Positions 2 through 4,708 of a DNA stretch of 5,142 nt are shown in pieces. The translations under genes were made by a program, and so were the position numbers. The stretch comes from Verrucomicrobiota bacterium. Its GTDB lineage: Bacteria; Verrucomicrobiota; Verrucomicrobiia; Verrucomicrobiales; DEV007. How positions within the stretch are numbered: the first letter of the stretch is position 1; each line of letters begins with the position of its first letter. The stretch spans positions 1 through 5,142 of the forward strand of contig JAQCER010000335.1 of the NCBI GenBank assembly GCA_027618625.1, read 5' to 3'. Under the pieces are notes generated by a model, which was not told the origin of the DNA, made no database searches, and was given only the letters and a program-made list of their open reading frames with translations.

Positions 2-1444
2 CCGGCGGACAAGCCGACGGTCATCGAGTTTACTGAACAACTTGAGCCCGAGAACCGCATCCGCATCATCGCTGATGGCCTTCCAGCGCTGCCTCCGAAG
101 GTGGAGGAAATCGGTGCTGACAAATACACCGGTCCGGGTCTGGTCATCCAGTGGGTCGAGGTCGAAGGCCCGTTGTTGGAATCGTGGCCGCCACCGAGCC
201 ATCGGGCGATTTTTGGCGATCTCAAACAGGAGCGCGTGGAAGGCGACGGAGATGGTCACAGATACGAAGTTGTCTCGTCGCGGCCATTGATCGATGCCGA
301 ACGGATTCTGCGCGACTTCGCGCGGCGGGCGTTTCGACGAGCGGTGACAGACGGGGATCTCCAGCCCTTCCTGACGCGGGTGAAATCCCGGTTGGAGGGA
401 GGATACACATTTGAGCAGGCGGTGCGGGTTGGGCTCAAGGGCATCCTCGTTTCACCCAGTTTCCTGTTTCTCCCAGAGGCGACTGAACCGGACGACTACG
501 CCCTTGCCAGTCGTTTGTCTTATTTCTTATGGAGTTCGATGCCGGACGAAACCTTGCACGATCTCGCTGCTGCGCGGAAGCTTCGTGATCCGGCAGTTCT
601 CCGTGGGCAAGTCGAGCGCATGCTGAACGATCCGAAGGTCGCGGCCTTCACTGAAAACTTCACCGGCCAATGGCTTAGCCTCCGTGCAATCGATGCCACC
701 TCGCCCGATCAAAAACTTTACCCGGAATATGACGACATCCTCAGGGCCGCCTTGATTAAAGAGCCAGCGCTGTTCTTCGACGAAGTGCTGAGGAAAGACC
801 TTAGCGTTGCGAACTTCGTCGATTCAGAGTTCACCTTCCTCAACGAACGCCTCGCAAGGCACTACGGCATTCCAGGAATCGAGGGCGCGAAGATGCGTAA
901 AGTGACCGTGCCGCCAGGGAGTCATCGCGGCGGAGTGATGACGATGGCCAGCGTGCTGAAGGTTACCGCCAATGGCACGACGACTTCACCCGTCCTGCGC
1001 GGTGCCTGGGTGCTTGAACGCATCCTGGGAACGCCGCCGTCGCCACCGCCACCGAATGTTGGGGCCATTGAGCCCGACATCCGCGGTGCCACCACGATCC
1101 GTGAGCAACTCGCGGAGCACCGCACGGTTGCCAGTTGCGCGAAGTGTCACCGCGAGATCGACCCGCCGGGCTTTGCGCTTGAGAGCTTCGATGTCATCGG
1201 CGGATGGCGTGATCATTATCGCGCCACCGGCGATGGCGGCCCGAAGGAAATCAACGGCCGACAGATGAGGGTTTGGCCCGGCCCTGCGGTCGATCCCAGC
1301 GACGTATTGCCCGACGGACGCCGATTCGAAAATATCGACCAGTACAAGGCACTGCTGCTCGATGACAAAGATCAACTCGCCCGCAACCTTACCGAAAAGC
1401 TGCTTACGTATGCGGCCGGTGCCTCTCCGATGATCGTGGACTAA
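2..1444 (+). CDS. DUF1595/DUF1592/DUF1588/DUF1585 cytochrome c-like protein, 5' partial, C-terminus cut by a stop codon
   Basis: The reading frame is open from base 2, so the start lies outside the window; 480 residues are visible. In visible-fragment numbering, a linker typical of the family (VEVEGPLLESWPPP) lies at about 53-66. DUF1595 follows at about 95-157, DUF1592 at about 165-295 (ASRLSYFLWSSMPDE near its start), DUF1588 at about 308-408 and the beginning of DUF1585 from about 438. DUF1588 carries a c-type heme-binding motif, CAKCH, at 379-383, followed by the usual IDPPGFALESFDVIGGWR. Full-length relatives also have an N-terminal planctomycete-type cytochrome c domain and DUF1587, presumably upstream of the window. 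The family is exported and may be redox-active, but no reaction is established. The frame ends at TAA 1442-1444, about 33 residues short of the normal end, inside DUF1585. The DUF1552 gene downstream is its usual neighbour. Family assignment is firm; whether the shortened product works is unknown. Confidence 0.93.
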   Translation, partial: PADKPTVIEFTEQLEPENRIRIIADGLPALPPKVEEIGADKYTGPGLVIQWVEVEGPLLESWPPPSHRAIFGDLKQERVEGDGDGHRYEVVSSRPLIDAERILRDFARRAFRRAVTDGDLQPFLTRVKSRLEGGYTFEQAVRVGLKGILVSPSFLFLPEATEPDDYALASRLSYFLWSSMPDETLHDLAAARKLRDPAVLRGQVERMLNDPKVAAFTENFTGQWLSLRAIDATSPDQKLYPEYDDILRAALIKEPALFFDEVLRKDLSVANFVDSEFTFLNERLARHYGIPGIEGAKMRKVTVPPGSHRGGVMTMASVLKVTANGTTTSPVLRGAWVLERILGTPPSPPPPNVGAIEPDIRGATTIREQLAEHRTVASCAKCHREIDPPGFALESFDVIGGWRDHYRATGDGGPKEINGRQMRVWPGPAVDPSDVLPDGRRFENIDQYKALLLDDKDQLARNLTEKLLTYAAGASPMIVD

Positions 1445-1546: not shown

Positions 1547-1551
1547 GCGTC

Positions 1552-1584
1552 TTAATCGCAATTGTAATCGTCATCATCGTCATC
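1552..1584 (+). repeat. Left hexamer-rich end, degenerate TTAATC/GTMATC units
   Basis: Successive six-base units read TTAATC, GCAATT, GTAATC and GTCATC, followed by ATC and a further GTCATC. Read in frame 1 this gives an alternating Ile/Val run, a composition expected from a repeat and not from a folded protein. The unit is close to the reverse complement of the GATTAA units at 1693-1728, which makes the two arrays an inverted pair. Confidence 0.6.
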
Positions 1585-1611
1585 CTATGCCGCAGCTGCC
1601 GCAGGCCCCAG

Positions 1612-1653
1612 TTCGATCACGAAAAGCTCAAGGTATACCAGGCGGCATTCGCC
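1612..1653 (+). pseudogene. Remnant of a four-helix-bundle protein gene (23S rRNA intervening-sequence protein family)
   Basis: In frame 1 the bases encode FDHEKLKVYQAAFA. This resembles the N-terminus of four-helix-bundle proteins of the S23/intervening-sequence type, which commonly begin with F-(D/E)-x-E-x-L-x-V-Y-Q-x-A. The family is normally about 115-130 residues long; here the likeness stops after about 14 residues and the frame closes at TAA 1696-1698. A possible C-terminal tail signature (YDNDF, then LRLRLR from the hexamers) lies in a different frame from 1671, so most of the gene seems to have been lost by an internal deletion that also shifted frame. No ATG precedes the remnant in frame. 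The match is short and made from memory, so the identification is moderate. Confidence 0.55.
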
Positions 1654-1692
1654 CTTTCTCCCATGTCACCTATGATAACGATTTTCTACAAG

Positions 1693-1728
1693 GATTAAGA
1701 CAACGATTAAGATTAAGATTAAGATTGA
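1693..1728 (+). repeat. Tandem GATTAA hexamer array, six units
   Basis: Six consecutive hexamers read GATTAA, GACAAC, GATTAA, GATTAA, GATTAA and GATTGA. Four are perfect copies of GATTAA and two are degenerate. The array ends four bases before the ATG of the DUF1552 gene, so it occupies that gene's whole translation-initiation region. In one frame it encodes an alternating Leu-Arg run, which is best read as a by-product of the repeat. Confidence 0.85.
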
Positions 1729-1732
1729 GAAG

Positions 1733-2995
1733 ATGAAACGTCGCGCCTTTATCCGTTCCGCTGGGATCTCGCTTGCACTTCCCTGGCTTGATGCTTTTTG
1801 CGGTGACTCCAAGCCAGAAGCAACGAATGGGACTCCGCGTCGCATGGTTTGCATCTGTGCGCCGCTAGGGTTGCATCCTGACAGCTTCTTTCCTGAACAA
1901 AGCGGCAAGGATTATGCGCCATCGCCTTACCTTGAAATCCTTAATGAACACCGCGATGATTTCACCGTGATCTCCGGACTGGAGCATGCCGGCATGAGTT
2001 CGAGCTTCGGGCATCAGGCCTCGGCCAGCTTCCTGACCGGAGCGCCGGGTGCCGGTCGGCCGGGGTTTCGCAATGCGATCTCGCTTGATCAATTCGCCGC
2101 CGAGCATATCGGTGCGCTGACGCGTTTCCCCAGCCTCGCCTTATCGGGTGAGGGATCGGGCGGCCTTTCGTGGACGCGCACCGGAGCGCTCATTCCCTCT
2201 GACAACTCACCGTCCAGGGTATTCGCGCGACTCTTTCTCGAAGGCCGCGCCGTTGAAGTGCGGGAGCAGATGCGCCGGATCGAAGACGGGCGCAGCATCC
2301 TCGATGACGTTCGCGAGCAGGCGAAGTCGCTGCGCACCAGTCTTGGCAGTAGCGATCGGGACAAACTCGATGAATACCTCACTAGCGTCCGGGAGTTGGA
2401 GCTGCGTATGGTCAACGACGAAAGCTGGGCGAGAAAGCCAAAACCCAAAGTGGAAGTTGAGCCACCGCAGGACATCCCAAACCCGGCCGACCTCATTGGG
2501 CGCACGCGCCTGCTCTTTGATCTCACCCATCTGGCACTGCAGACAGACTCGACCCGGCTCATCACCATCATGCTCGCTGGTTCCACTGCTGCCCCGCCAA
2601 TCGAAGGCGTATCCTTTGGGCACCACGACCTCTCACATCATGGCAAAGATCCCGGCAAACTGGAGCAACTCAAGATCGTCGAAGTTGAGGCGATGAAAAC
2701 CGTGCGCGACCTGCTCGGAAAGCTCAAGGGCTCGAAGGAGGATGACGCGAATCTTCTCGACCGCACGACGGTATTCCTCGGTAGCAACCTTGGCGATGCC
2801 AGCAGTCATTCGACCAGAAATCTGCCCGTTCTCCTCGCTGGCGGCGGCTTCCGGCACGGTCAGCATCTTCCCTTCGATCCAGAGAACCCGCCGCCGTTGT
2901 GCAACCTCTACGTGAGCATGCTTCAACGCCTCGGCATCGAGACCGACACGTTCAATACAAGCACGGGAACGCTGACAGGATTGTCGATGGCGTGA
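1733..2995 (+). CDS. DUF1552 (HXXSHH motif) protein with twin-arginine signal
   Basis: A 420-residue protein, near the usual family length of roughly 430-470. The N-terminus MKRRAFIRSAG is a twin-arginine motif followed by a hydrophobic stretch ending around residue 22, so Tat export of a folded protein is likely. Family landmarks are GLEHAG near 82-87, HQASASFLTG at 94-103, the diagnostic HDLSHH at 298-303 (the HXXSHH motif of Pfam PF07586) and an FLGSNLGDASSHS stretch at 348-360. The histidine-rich motif suggests metal binding, but no enzymatic activity is established. ATG 1733 is chosen because the Tat motif begins immediately after it. No good Shine-Dalgarno is visible: GAGAAG abuts the ATG with no spacer. 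The gene follows its usual DUF1592-type partner, but 186 bases of mostly decayed element separate them. It ends in TGA. Confidence 0.93.
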   Translation: MKRRAFIRSAGISLALPWLDAFCGDSKPEATNGTPRRMVCICAPLGLHPDSFFPEQSGKDYAPSPYLEILNEHRDDFTVISGLEHAGMSSSFGHQASASFLTGAPGAGRPGFRNAISLDQFAAEHIGALTRFPSLALSGEGSGGLSWTRTGALIPSDNSPSRVFARLFLEGRAVEVREQMRRIEDGRSILDDVREQAKSLRTSLGSSDRDKLDEYLTSVRELELRMVNDESWARKPKPKVEVEPPQDIPNPADLIGRTRLLFDLTHLALQTDSTRLITIMLAGSTAAPPIEGVSFGHHDLSHHGKDPGKLEQLKIVEVEAMKTVRDLLGKLKGSKEDDANLLDRTTVFLGSNLGDASSHSTRNLPVLLAGGGFRHGQHLPFDPENPPPLCNLYVSMLQRLGIETDTFNTSTGTLTGLSMA

Positions 2996-3079: not shown

Positions 3080-4708
3080 CTACGGCTTCACGACGGAAAC
3101 CAACGCGTCCCCTGGTTCAGCACAAAGCACGAGTCCGCGAAAGTGGAATTCCTGCGGCTTGCCATTGGCATGCAATTGCAGGCCGATCGATGAGGCTTTC
3201 AGCATTTCTGGGGCGTCGGTGAAATCGAATACTTCGACGCCGTTTGCTGCACAGCGGATGCGGTCGCCGGCGGCGAGAAATTCCACCAGATTCCAGTCAC
3301 CCTGGTGTTCGGCATCGATGTTGAGCGTCGTTGGGTGACCTGCGGGTTCGATGCGATTGCGCCGATGGGCATCCCAGATGCCCCAGTCGTGACAGAACAT
3401 CAACAGTGGCCCGCGAAAGCCGAACGGATTGTCTCCGGTATCCGTGATCTGCTCGCCTAAAGCTGCTACGGCAGAATGCATGGTCGAGTGCCTGGGTGAC
3501 ATCGTTTGCTTCACTTCGAGCAGGAGTCGAAAATTCCGATGGGTACCGTTGGTAAACAGGTAAGTGCTGGAAGGGACATTGCCAGAGTTGGCACCGCGGA
3601 TCATGCCATCGGTCACCGACCAGTAATCGCGGTCGCCTTTCCAGCCCGTGAGATTGAAACCGTTGAACAGGCGCTGTGGTCGTTCAGTCGCGGGTATCTT
3701 CTCGACGATCGATTCGAAGGTGTCGCTACCACGATGATGTGAAGCGATGAATCCATTGATCCTGGTCTCGATTTCCGCTGCCGCTACACTTGCATCTTGG
3801 ATCTGCATTCCGGGTTTCATGCCGGGTCGAGTGTGGCCGGTATACGTCAACCAGGCACTGTGCAACAACTGCTGCCGTTCATTGACGAGCGCATACAGTT
3901 CCTGGTTCACCTTTGATGATCCAGCGGGGAATCCCCAGCTTTGCAGGATCGGTTCCGCCAGCAAGATTTGGCCGACTTCGTCCACGTGAATGCCGTCGCC
4001 TGACATGACGTAGTCAGGGTTTGTCTCGCGTTGTTTGGCCAGGTGCGCATTCACCGGGCCGTGCCAGTCAATCACCATCTCGACAGGTTCATAGAGGGAC
4101 GATACCCAGTCAGCATAGCGGGCGAGCACGTCGGAGTCGTAGTCTTCATAGATGTCAGTCCAAGCAAATTTCGGCGCATTAAGCTTGGCGAGTTTGCCCT
4201 GCTTCGCCATTGGCAGCGGATCAAAAGGCGGCGGGGTCATTAACACTAACATTGCACCTGAGCGGTGCACCTTTTCTACAAGCTCCAGCATTCCGGATCG
4301 AAACGCCGCAAAGCGATCCTCGCTGAACGGGTGATAGATGCCGTCGTTGATTCCATAGCACGCTACCACTACATCGGGATGCATTCTCGACAGGACTCGA
4401 TCAAGACGCTCGTGCACATTCGGACGCGGGAACGGATGTCCCGGTTCGGTGAGCCCAGTGCAGCCTTCGCTGGGCAGGCCAAGATTGAGCATCTCGGGCA
4501 GGGGACTGATTCCCTCCTGCCGCAGGCGCGTCTCGATCACGGAAATGTAGCGGCCGTCATTCGTGATGGAGTCGCCAAGAAATACGATGCGCTTCGCCGA
4601 TTTTAAAAACGCTGCGGGTTCCTCGGCGCTCAACGAGAGAACCAGGGCAAGAAAGGCGAGGAGACGGAGTAGTGGTAGTGGCTGGAAGGGGAGCGATGAC
4701 AGGTTCAC
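3080..4708 (-). CDS. Secreted SGNH/GDSL hydrolase fused to a DUF1080 (3-keto-disaccharide hydrolase-type) domain
   Basis: A 542-residue protein starting at GTG. A hydrophobic signal peptide spans about residues 10-28, with likely cleavage near SLSA-EE. The SGNH domain covers about 38-260: block I FLGDSIT with nucleophile Ser47, block II Gly77 in NLGLPSEG, block III GIND with Asn121, and block V DGIH with Asp238 and His241. The complete catalytic set implies an active esterase, acetylesterase or similar. The C-terminal DUF1080 domain (Pfam PF06439) covers about 343-532. It opens with QRLFNGFNLTGW and includes LLMFCHDWGIWDAHRRN, typical of this jellyroll domain, which is linked to carbohydrate hydrolysis or binding. 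A helical linker of about 80 residues joins the two. An exported enzyme acting on decorated polysaccharide is a reasonable inference; the substrate is not readable. GTG is the only good start ahead of the signal peptide, and no clear ribosome site is seen. The stop is TAG. Confidence 0.92.
   Translation of the reverse strand: MNLSSLPFQPLPLLRLLAFLALVLSLSAEEPAAFLKSAKRIVFLGDSITNDGRYISVIETRLRQEGISPLPEMLNLGLPSEGCTGLTEPGHPFPRPNVHERLDRVLSRMHPDVVVACYGINDGIYHPFSEDRFAAFRSGMLELVEKVHRSGAMLVLMTPPPFDPLPMAKQGKLAKLNAPKFAWTDIYEDYDSDVLARYADWVSSLYEPVEMVIDWHGPVNAHLAKQRETNPDYVMSGDGIHVDEVGQILLAEPILQSWGFPAGSSKVNQELYALVNERQQLLHSAWLTYTGHTRPGMKPGMQIQDASVAAAEIETRINGFIASHHRGSDTFESIVEKIPATERPQRLFNGFNLTGWKGDRDYWSVTDGMIRGANSGNVPSSTYLFTNGTHRNFRLLLEVKQTMSPRHSTMHSAVAALGEQITDTGDNPFGFRGPLLMFCHDWGIWDAHRRNRIEPAGHPTTLNIDAEHQGDWNLVEFLAAGDRIRCAANGVEVFDFTDAPEMLKASSIGLQLHANGKPQEFHFRGLVLCAEPGDALVSVVKP

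Follow-up and report, generated by a model that had tools for sequence, protein, structure and literature searches.

A probable deletion remnant of a small four-helix-bundle gene element with inverted six-base-unit arrays between two host genes of a Verrucomicrobiota bacterium

The window, by which we mean the whole 5,142-nucleotide stretch of Verrucomicrobiota DNA that was analysed, contains a DUF1592-type gene and a DUF1552 gene on the forward strand, with a spacer at 1547-1732 between them. The features around and within this spacer are as follows:

2-1444, forward strand: upstream host gene with DUF1595, DUF1592, DUF1588 and partial DUF1585 domains (Pfam), its 5' end cut by the window start
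1550-1585, no strand: left array of six degenerate TCNTAA-type hexamer units, lag-6 identity 0.70, aligning to the left array of a sister copy on contig C305
1587-1694, forward strand: 5'-terminal quarter of a four-helix-bundle (4HB, PF05635-type) gene, spread over two frames and placed by coding-part alignment to the C305 sister (L005)
1693-1728, no strand: right array of GATTAA-type hexamers in inverted orientation to the left one, lag-6 identity 0.77
1733-2995, forward strand: downstream host gene with a DUF1552 domain (Pfam), with orthologues 80-84% alike in G020, G008 and G076

The DUF1592-type gene ends at an early stop codon (1442-1444), about 100 nt ahead of the stop of its orthologue in G001. 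Only the first half of its DUF1585 domain remains, and the G001 orthologue continues. Further downstream, positions 3080-4708 of the minus strand hold one gene with GDSL-type lipase and 3-keto-disaccharide hydrolase domains (Pfam).

A preliminary description of this DNA had read the spacer as a repeat-bounded 4HB remnant between two genes, and the lag-6 identity of the arrays, the alignment to C305 and the Pfam domains of the flanking genes bore this out. The start codon of the remnant lies at 1587, the first frame encodes FDHEKLKVYQAAFA at 1612-1653 of the forward strand, and the second frame encodes VTYDNDFLQG at 1665-1694. The C305 sister gene is near-full-length and matched PF05635 at 63.3 bits, against a Pfam cut-off of 33.8. 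The DNA alignment between the two copies starts in the left array, crosses the frame change and reaches the codons for DDLLQD, with a whole score of 95; its coding part scored 70, whereas 500 shuffles gave at most 34. This alignment to the sister, and not a profile match of its own, ties the window copy to PF05635. About 310 nt of the sister are absent from the window copy, just before the right array. The coding part had been called almost wholly deleted; the loss was found, but the remnant is longer than had been stated and keeps the first quarter of the gene.

The arrays of the C305 sister (TTAATC/TCGTAA on the left and GATTAA on the right) are inverted and stronger than those of the window, and the contig starts inside the left one. 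The window right array was 91% identical to the C305 arrays over 33 nt and 100% identical over 23 nt. Hexamer arrays in inverted orientation, as first described, were present in the window, but the arms were weak: their best alignment covered 22 nt with 4 mismatches and scored 24, a score reached by 64 of 2000 first-order resamples, against the cut-off of 27 used for relatives. The inverted relation of the two arrays is real but weak in this copy, and since the arms are weak on their own, the copy is recognised through its relatives. No target-site duplication was visible by eye at the window copy in comparison with G001, whose spacer differs. Among plasmids, the window DNA matched only one Borreliella record, through a repeat.

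Clear TAATC arrays in the window's own genome, a 71% complete assembly, were found only on C305 and in the window, with weak single arms on C284 and C703. A second deleted copy was not found in this assembly, and there was no sign in it that the window copy had moved after its deletion. The several copies expected of a MITE were likewise not found in this genome, which held the gene-bearing C305 copy and the window copy only. Other copies with such ends were nevertheless found, in the same genome (C305) and in relatives. The proposal of a MITE-like unit thus fits the class, which has deleted and gene-less copies in other genomes, but is only partly borne out for the window copy.

The orthologous DUF1592-DUF1552 junction measures about 31 nt in the congeneric G001; in G020 and G008 it is about 20 nt long. 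Comparison of these spacers for an empty site ruled out an ancestral spacer, as the junction is short in all three relatives. The G001 spacer contains one CTTAATC and, to judge from these letters, may be a scar instead of a site that was never used. At the same junction, G076 has an intact 4HB gene from a different subfamily, flanked left and right by GACAATCA-type arrays. Two different elements have thus occupied one junction. G076 also holds a gene-less hairpin built from the GACAATCA-type unit on contig C49. Separately, a gene-less array hairpin of this unit lies on the minus strand of L238 (G076:C47, about 4105-4200), in frame within a DUF1592 coding sequence, to which it adds about 35 residues absent from the window gene.

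The architecture was surveyed with an arm test, in which the 260 nt left of each 4HB match were compared with the 420 nt on its right after reverse complementation. The cut-off of 27 was chosen after inspection of a control. The FDHEKL-type set comprised 80 loci from named genomes, kept of 536 found, from which 9 were dropped for short flanks or N runs. Scores over 27 were obtained for 68 of 71 FDHEKL-type loci, 11 of 12 FDHEKL relatives (one of 13 dropped), 16 of 17 other PF05635 genes in relatives, and 21 of 29 best PF05635 hits of the phylum (one of 30 dropped); among non-FDHEKL PF05635 genes from the phylum the count was 37 of 46. Plasmid-borne PF05635 genes exceeded the cut-off in 17 of 19 cases, 19 having been fetched of 25 records found, all of them complete records from cyanobacteria, Azospirillum and Gemmatirosa. 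The controls over 27 were 0 of 20 DUF1552 genes and 1 of 56 and 2 of 49 FDHEKL loci with outward-shifted windows. Terminal inverted repeats around the IVP ORF are a feature of the class and are weak in the window copy. Up to three loci may have been counted twice, as L008/L061 and L009/L084 are seemingly the same contigs and L026/L145 the same gene, and L318 and L320 represent an almost identical plasmid element. PF05635 itself was prevalent, with 199 of 288 sampled genomes of the phylum over the Pfam cut-off and 220 at E up to 0.001.

Cross pairs, in which arms from different FDHEKL loci were compared, exceeded 27 in 38.5% of cases, owing to the common unit. Arm scores thus partly reflect this unit, and only 9 of 71 diagonals topped their own row and column. 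Own arms outscored cross pairs, with medians of 44 and 24, respectively. When the order of units was permuted, the real order outscored the permutation mean in 62 of 82 loci, and p was 0.05 or less in 28 of the 82 (11 loci skipped). The unit period was 6 in all 72 FDHEKL loci with an arm score of at least 28, and 7 in 31 of 38 non-FDHEKL loci; for plasmids it was 7 in 13 and 8 in 4 of 17. The 6-mer in the pyrimidine-rich left arm reads TC-N-T-A/T-A/C. Its letters vary between elements, and the hexamer is not a fixed end sequence. Protein similarity correlated with array composition (r 0.33 over 84 loci; 0 of 2000 permutations). This correlation would fit arrays that are read by the 4HB protein, and common descent alone could also be its source. 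At L166 (G336:C91), a PF05635 gene lies between inverted arrays of a much longer, GGTTTGAGTCGC-type unit of about 25 nt.

Gene-less hairpins were sought in 288 genomes of the phylum with a short TAATC pattern (loop 5-35 nt), in which one hairpin can yield several matches. FDHEKL-type genes were called with the A1 profile at E up to 2e-23, a cut set after the profile results had been seen. Hairpin matches occurred in 25 of the 288 genomes, namely in 15 of 47 with an FDHEKL-type gene and in 10 of 241 without (Fisher p 2e-7). Eight of these 10 carry another PF05635 gene; G190 has none, and G134 was not among the PF05635 matches. G183 yielded 25 hairpin matches and has no FDHEKL-type gene by the chosen cut. 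The loops are too small for a gene, and some of the hairpins may be part of a hairpin-gene-hairpin element. In G180, 32 TAATC hairpin matches were observed together with four fragments of the 4HB N-terminus, about 48 model positions long (contigs C21, C23, C26 and C153, one of them at a contig end), much like the window remnant.

In G038 a hairpin detector found 13 hairpins over 379 kb, and in G060 it found 2 over 400 kb, with 0 in triplet-shuffled sequence; some of the 13 resemble other repeats, and 10 of the 20 G038 stretches had been preselected for arrays or a 4HB gene. A stricter detector gave 3 for G038 and 1 for G060, the latter inside an ORF call, so the counts depend on the detector. 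Reversed sequence was void as a control because reversal preserves inverted repeats, and the backward-read array pattern is not independent for CTCCTA-type arrays. G038 also contains other dispersed hairpin families (L170-L189), such as CAAGGAGGGCCGACATTCCTGTCGGCC and GAAGTTCGTGAGAACTTC, with a make-up unlike that of the arrays.

Similar copies were found at different sites of single genomes. The MAG ADurb.Bin070 holds three copies on three contigs, 99% identical over 480-524 nt, the Akkermansia-labelled MAG TH-08apr19-195 holds two copies that are 97% identical, and a third MAG holds a copy at 88-90%. An outer inverted repeat beyond the arrays was present on both sides in L096, L097, L114 and L102 and on the left only in L092; for L103 the contig ends on the right side. 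Flanking direct repeats of 8-14 bp were seen by eye in 5 of 9 outer-repeat elements, namely GTGGGTGAA (L078), GTGATGGGT (L082), GAAGCCGAA/G (L096), GGWCCACTCATC (L308) and CCTGCTGGGAACCG (L315), and none was clear by eye in L097, L114, L270 and L290. Target-site duplications are present for L315, L308 and L318, and the length of the direct repeat varies across elements from 5 to 14 bp. G366 contains full-size copies (L097, L114 and L270) along with internally deleted ones, namely L315 (250 bp), L290 (348 bp) and L286, which is cut by a contig end. The ends of these derivatives are retained as far as the contigs allow, and L315 is the nearest parallel to the window copy. In G367 the outer repeat GTGCGCATCTCAGATTTTT of 4HB elements also bounds a multi-copy, collapsed sequence at which contigs break. 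This sequence is probably an IS, on a link that comes from one genome in which the IS body is unassembled. The body of an IS-like sequence with the shared outer repeat was found in 0 of 377 genomes of the phylum. A degenerate pattern for GTGCGCATCTCAGATTTTT gave 103+125 matches in G366, against 24+19 for the control.

Empty sites were identified in cyanobacteria. In plasmid C of Trichormus variabilis (L318), GTAAT stands on both sides of an array-ended element, and plasmids of Nostoc linckia and N. carneum carry a single GTAAT and no element, which amounts to an exact empty site and a 5-bp duplication. The flanks of the filled and empty sites are 97.6-98.5% alike, and a plasmid of Nostoc sp. 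C052 carries a truncated copy at this site. An element lies between cas10 and a cmr3-type gene in PCC 7003 and is absent in PCC 7002. Another lies between cas6 and cas4 in Anabaena sp. 90 and Pseudanabaena galeata and is absent in Dolichospermum UHCC 0315A. A further element, between nrdB and nrdA, has the opposite direction to its host genes. The plasmid loci L321, L323 and L326 have 4HB genes with inverted arrays between cas genes. IVP genes have been noted in cas loci before (PMC3936711), and the reported link with CRISPR loci may, by these arrangements, reflect insertion rather than function. As far as can be read from the genomes, near-identical copies at several sites, the empty site, deleted copies and gene-less hairpins point to mobility.

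The preliminary description had further held that the ends of the unit, and not its protein, are what is kept. This was too strong, as dN/dS was 0.03-0.17 in 10 of 13 cross-genome pairs. The remaining pairs were near-identical plasmid genes (0.86) and two saturated comparisons. Two 97% copies within one genome gave 0.85, the L012/L013 pair is close to saturation, and values at low divergence rest on few changes. The ratios indicate purifying selection on the 4HB protein in most cross-genome comparisons, so the ends would not be all that is kept. The 4HB gene ran in the direction of its host neighbours in 74 of 79 cases in which both neighbours share a direction, the neighbours being longest-ORF guesses and not annotations. 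A search of solved structures returned the uncharacterised 2gsc (E 1.8e-16) and 2rld (E 0.0022), with FliS chains at E of at least 0.25. No recombinase or transposase was seen within the element, the ORF of the C305 sister being PF05635 only, and no reverse transcriptase was detected among four window ORFs scanned with Pfam. The four-helix bundle is not known to have a catalytic site. From this we infer array binding by the protein and a recombinase supplied in trans.

The anatomy of the element, its recurrence, its copies at multiple sites, the empty sites and its deleted and gene-less copies are all observed directly. We consider it probable, though well short of certain, that the insert at 1550-1728 is the deletion remnant of a small PF05635-gene element with inverted arrays of six-base units, and that the class is DNA-mobile with a predicted recombinase acting in trans. 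Such an element would insert between genes, mostly in the direction of host transcription. Its 4HB gene, presumably promoterless, would be read along with the host operon, and the sense orientation would spare that operon. The 4HB protein would be a putative binder of the tandem units, which would account for the way the period and composition of the unit track the protein subfamily. A second enzyme would carry out strand transfer; in one subfamily the probable candidate is the transposase of a multi-copy IS that has the same outer terminal repeat. Loss of the middle of the gene would leave the ends, as in the window, and deletion derivatives and bare hairpins would live on activity in trans, as MITEs do. 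Movement at the DNA level most simply accounts for the duplications and the empty site, and we favour DNA-level mobilisation in trans with a 4HB protein that would read the arrays.

A wider version of this reading is offered tentatively, as one we suspect is rather less likely to be right than wrong. The 4HB protein would itself act as mobility factor for a minimal transposable element of a new class, in which a pentameric ring reads inverted arrays of 6-8 nt units whose letters drift with the protein. Free-standing 4HB genes across bacteria, the 23S rRNA intervening sequence (IVS), the IVP genes of cas operons and TAACTGA-type arrays would then be its intact, rRNA-borne, operon-borne and gene-less forms, respectively.

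An RNA-level element, as an intergenic counterpart of the 23S rRNA IVS, is the strongest of the alternatives and is still unlikely. In the operon transcript the two arms would form a stem, the 4HB message would be excised by RNase III, and spread would proceed via RNA. The Coxiella IVS, which has the same protein family in terminal inverted repeats with a stem cut by RNase III (PMC4990558), is consistent with it, as are the sense orientation (74:5) and the dependence of arm pairing on unit order in the 28 of 82 loci. However, mismatches in the arms showed no sense-strand preference for G.U (83:88 and 52:55), and selection on an RNA stem is not favoured. The target duplications, the exact DNA empty site and the outer repeats common to an IS-like sequence all argue for DNA.

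Somewhat less likely again is an ordinary IS-derived MITE that captured the 4HB gene as a passenger, with incidental arrays. The outer repeat GTGCGCATCTCAGATTTTT common to 4HB elements and the collapsed multi-copy sequence of G367 would be expected of such an origin, as would the excess of outer-repeat matches in G366 over the control (103+125 against 24+19). Yet a repeat outside the arrays was seen by eye in only about 7 of 88 alignments, whereas the arrays are near universal and follow the protein subfamily. Immobile host regulator genes with locally expanding short tandem repeats would account for elements at seemingly the same junction in several genomes (L010/L011 and L012-L014), as inherited genes would be, but are very improbable in view of the near-identical copies found at separate sites, the closely related plasmids with empty sites and the two different elements at one junction.

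The element can be set beside several known systems. The 23S rRNA IVS of Coxiella burnetii, with a 28-bp stem cut by RNase III and a mobile past under discussion (PMC4990558), shares a lone PF05635-type ORF in terminal inverted repeats inserted in a transcribed unit. In contrast, the IVS lies within the 23S rRNA gene and the window element between two protein genes; the part of PMC4990558 consulted mentions no tandem array for it, while the elements described here have arrays with units of 6-8 nt, are present in several copies within some genomes and include gene-less copies. IVP genes are also reported at several rRNA insertion sites of CPR bacteria (PMC11270868). REPINs, gene-less inverted hairpins that spread intergenically and are tied to one protein family (PMC3116915), are by analogy the nearest gene-less counterpart. 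However, RAYT is a tyrosine transposase, whereas a four-helix bundle and arms of short tandem arrays with varying letters are involved here; the C305 sister ORF, being PF05635 only, provides no REP-associated tyrosine transposase to go with a REP hairpin. MITEs share short deletion derivatives that retain their ends, target duplications and presumed mobilisation in trans. The parental 4HB element differs in that no transposase was seen in it and its ends are arrays of variable sequence. Retention of ends with loss of the gene is clear in the G366 derivatives, and in the window it is to be read with the arm score of 24 and its 64 of 2000 resamples.

TAACTGA heptamer arrays of Beggiatoaceae, cyanobacteria and Bacteroidetes, which have no known binding protein (MacGregor 2015, PMC4679880), are likewise intergenic 7-nt tandem arrays with suspected horizontal spread, but are described mainly as direct repeats. 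A text search of the main text of PMC4679880 gave no mention of four-helix or S23 proteins. The TCAGNNN heptamer arrays of L318 and L319 (1440-1500) resemble TAACTGA, which is TCAGTTA on the other strand. The arrays of MacGregor 2015 may, on this likeness, be gene-less relatives of those of L318 and L319. Avd of diversity-generating retroelements belongs to the same fold family (PMC10053308), and L318 gave a weak bAvd match below the Pfam cut-off. Avd works with a reverse transcriptase and template and variable repeats. The preliminary description had regarded a MITE-like life cycle for this family as not well described, and no publication on 4HB genes together with inverted tandem arrays was found among the matches listed from open-licence papers.

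PF05635 genes are common, and names such as 'four helix bundle' or 'S23 ribosomal' protein assign them no function. If PF05635 is the gene of a small mobile element, one explanation would cover its dispersed occurrence, its presence inside cas and nrd gene pairs and the origin of the rRNA IVS. Cultured cyanobacteria that have filled and empty sites would allow the present or past mobility of the IVS to be tested. The architecture also occurs in other bacterial phyla, and together with its gene-less versions it would make an overlooked family of jumping elements.
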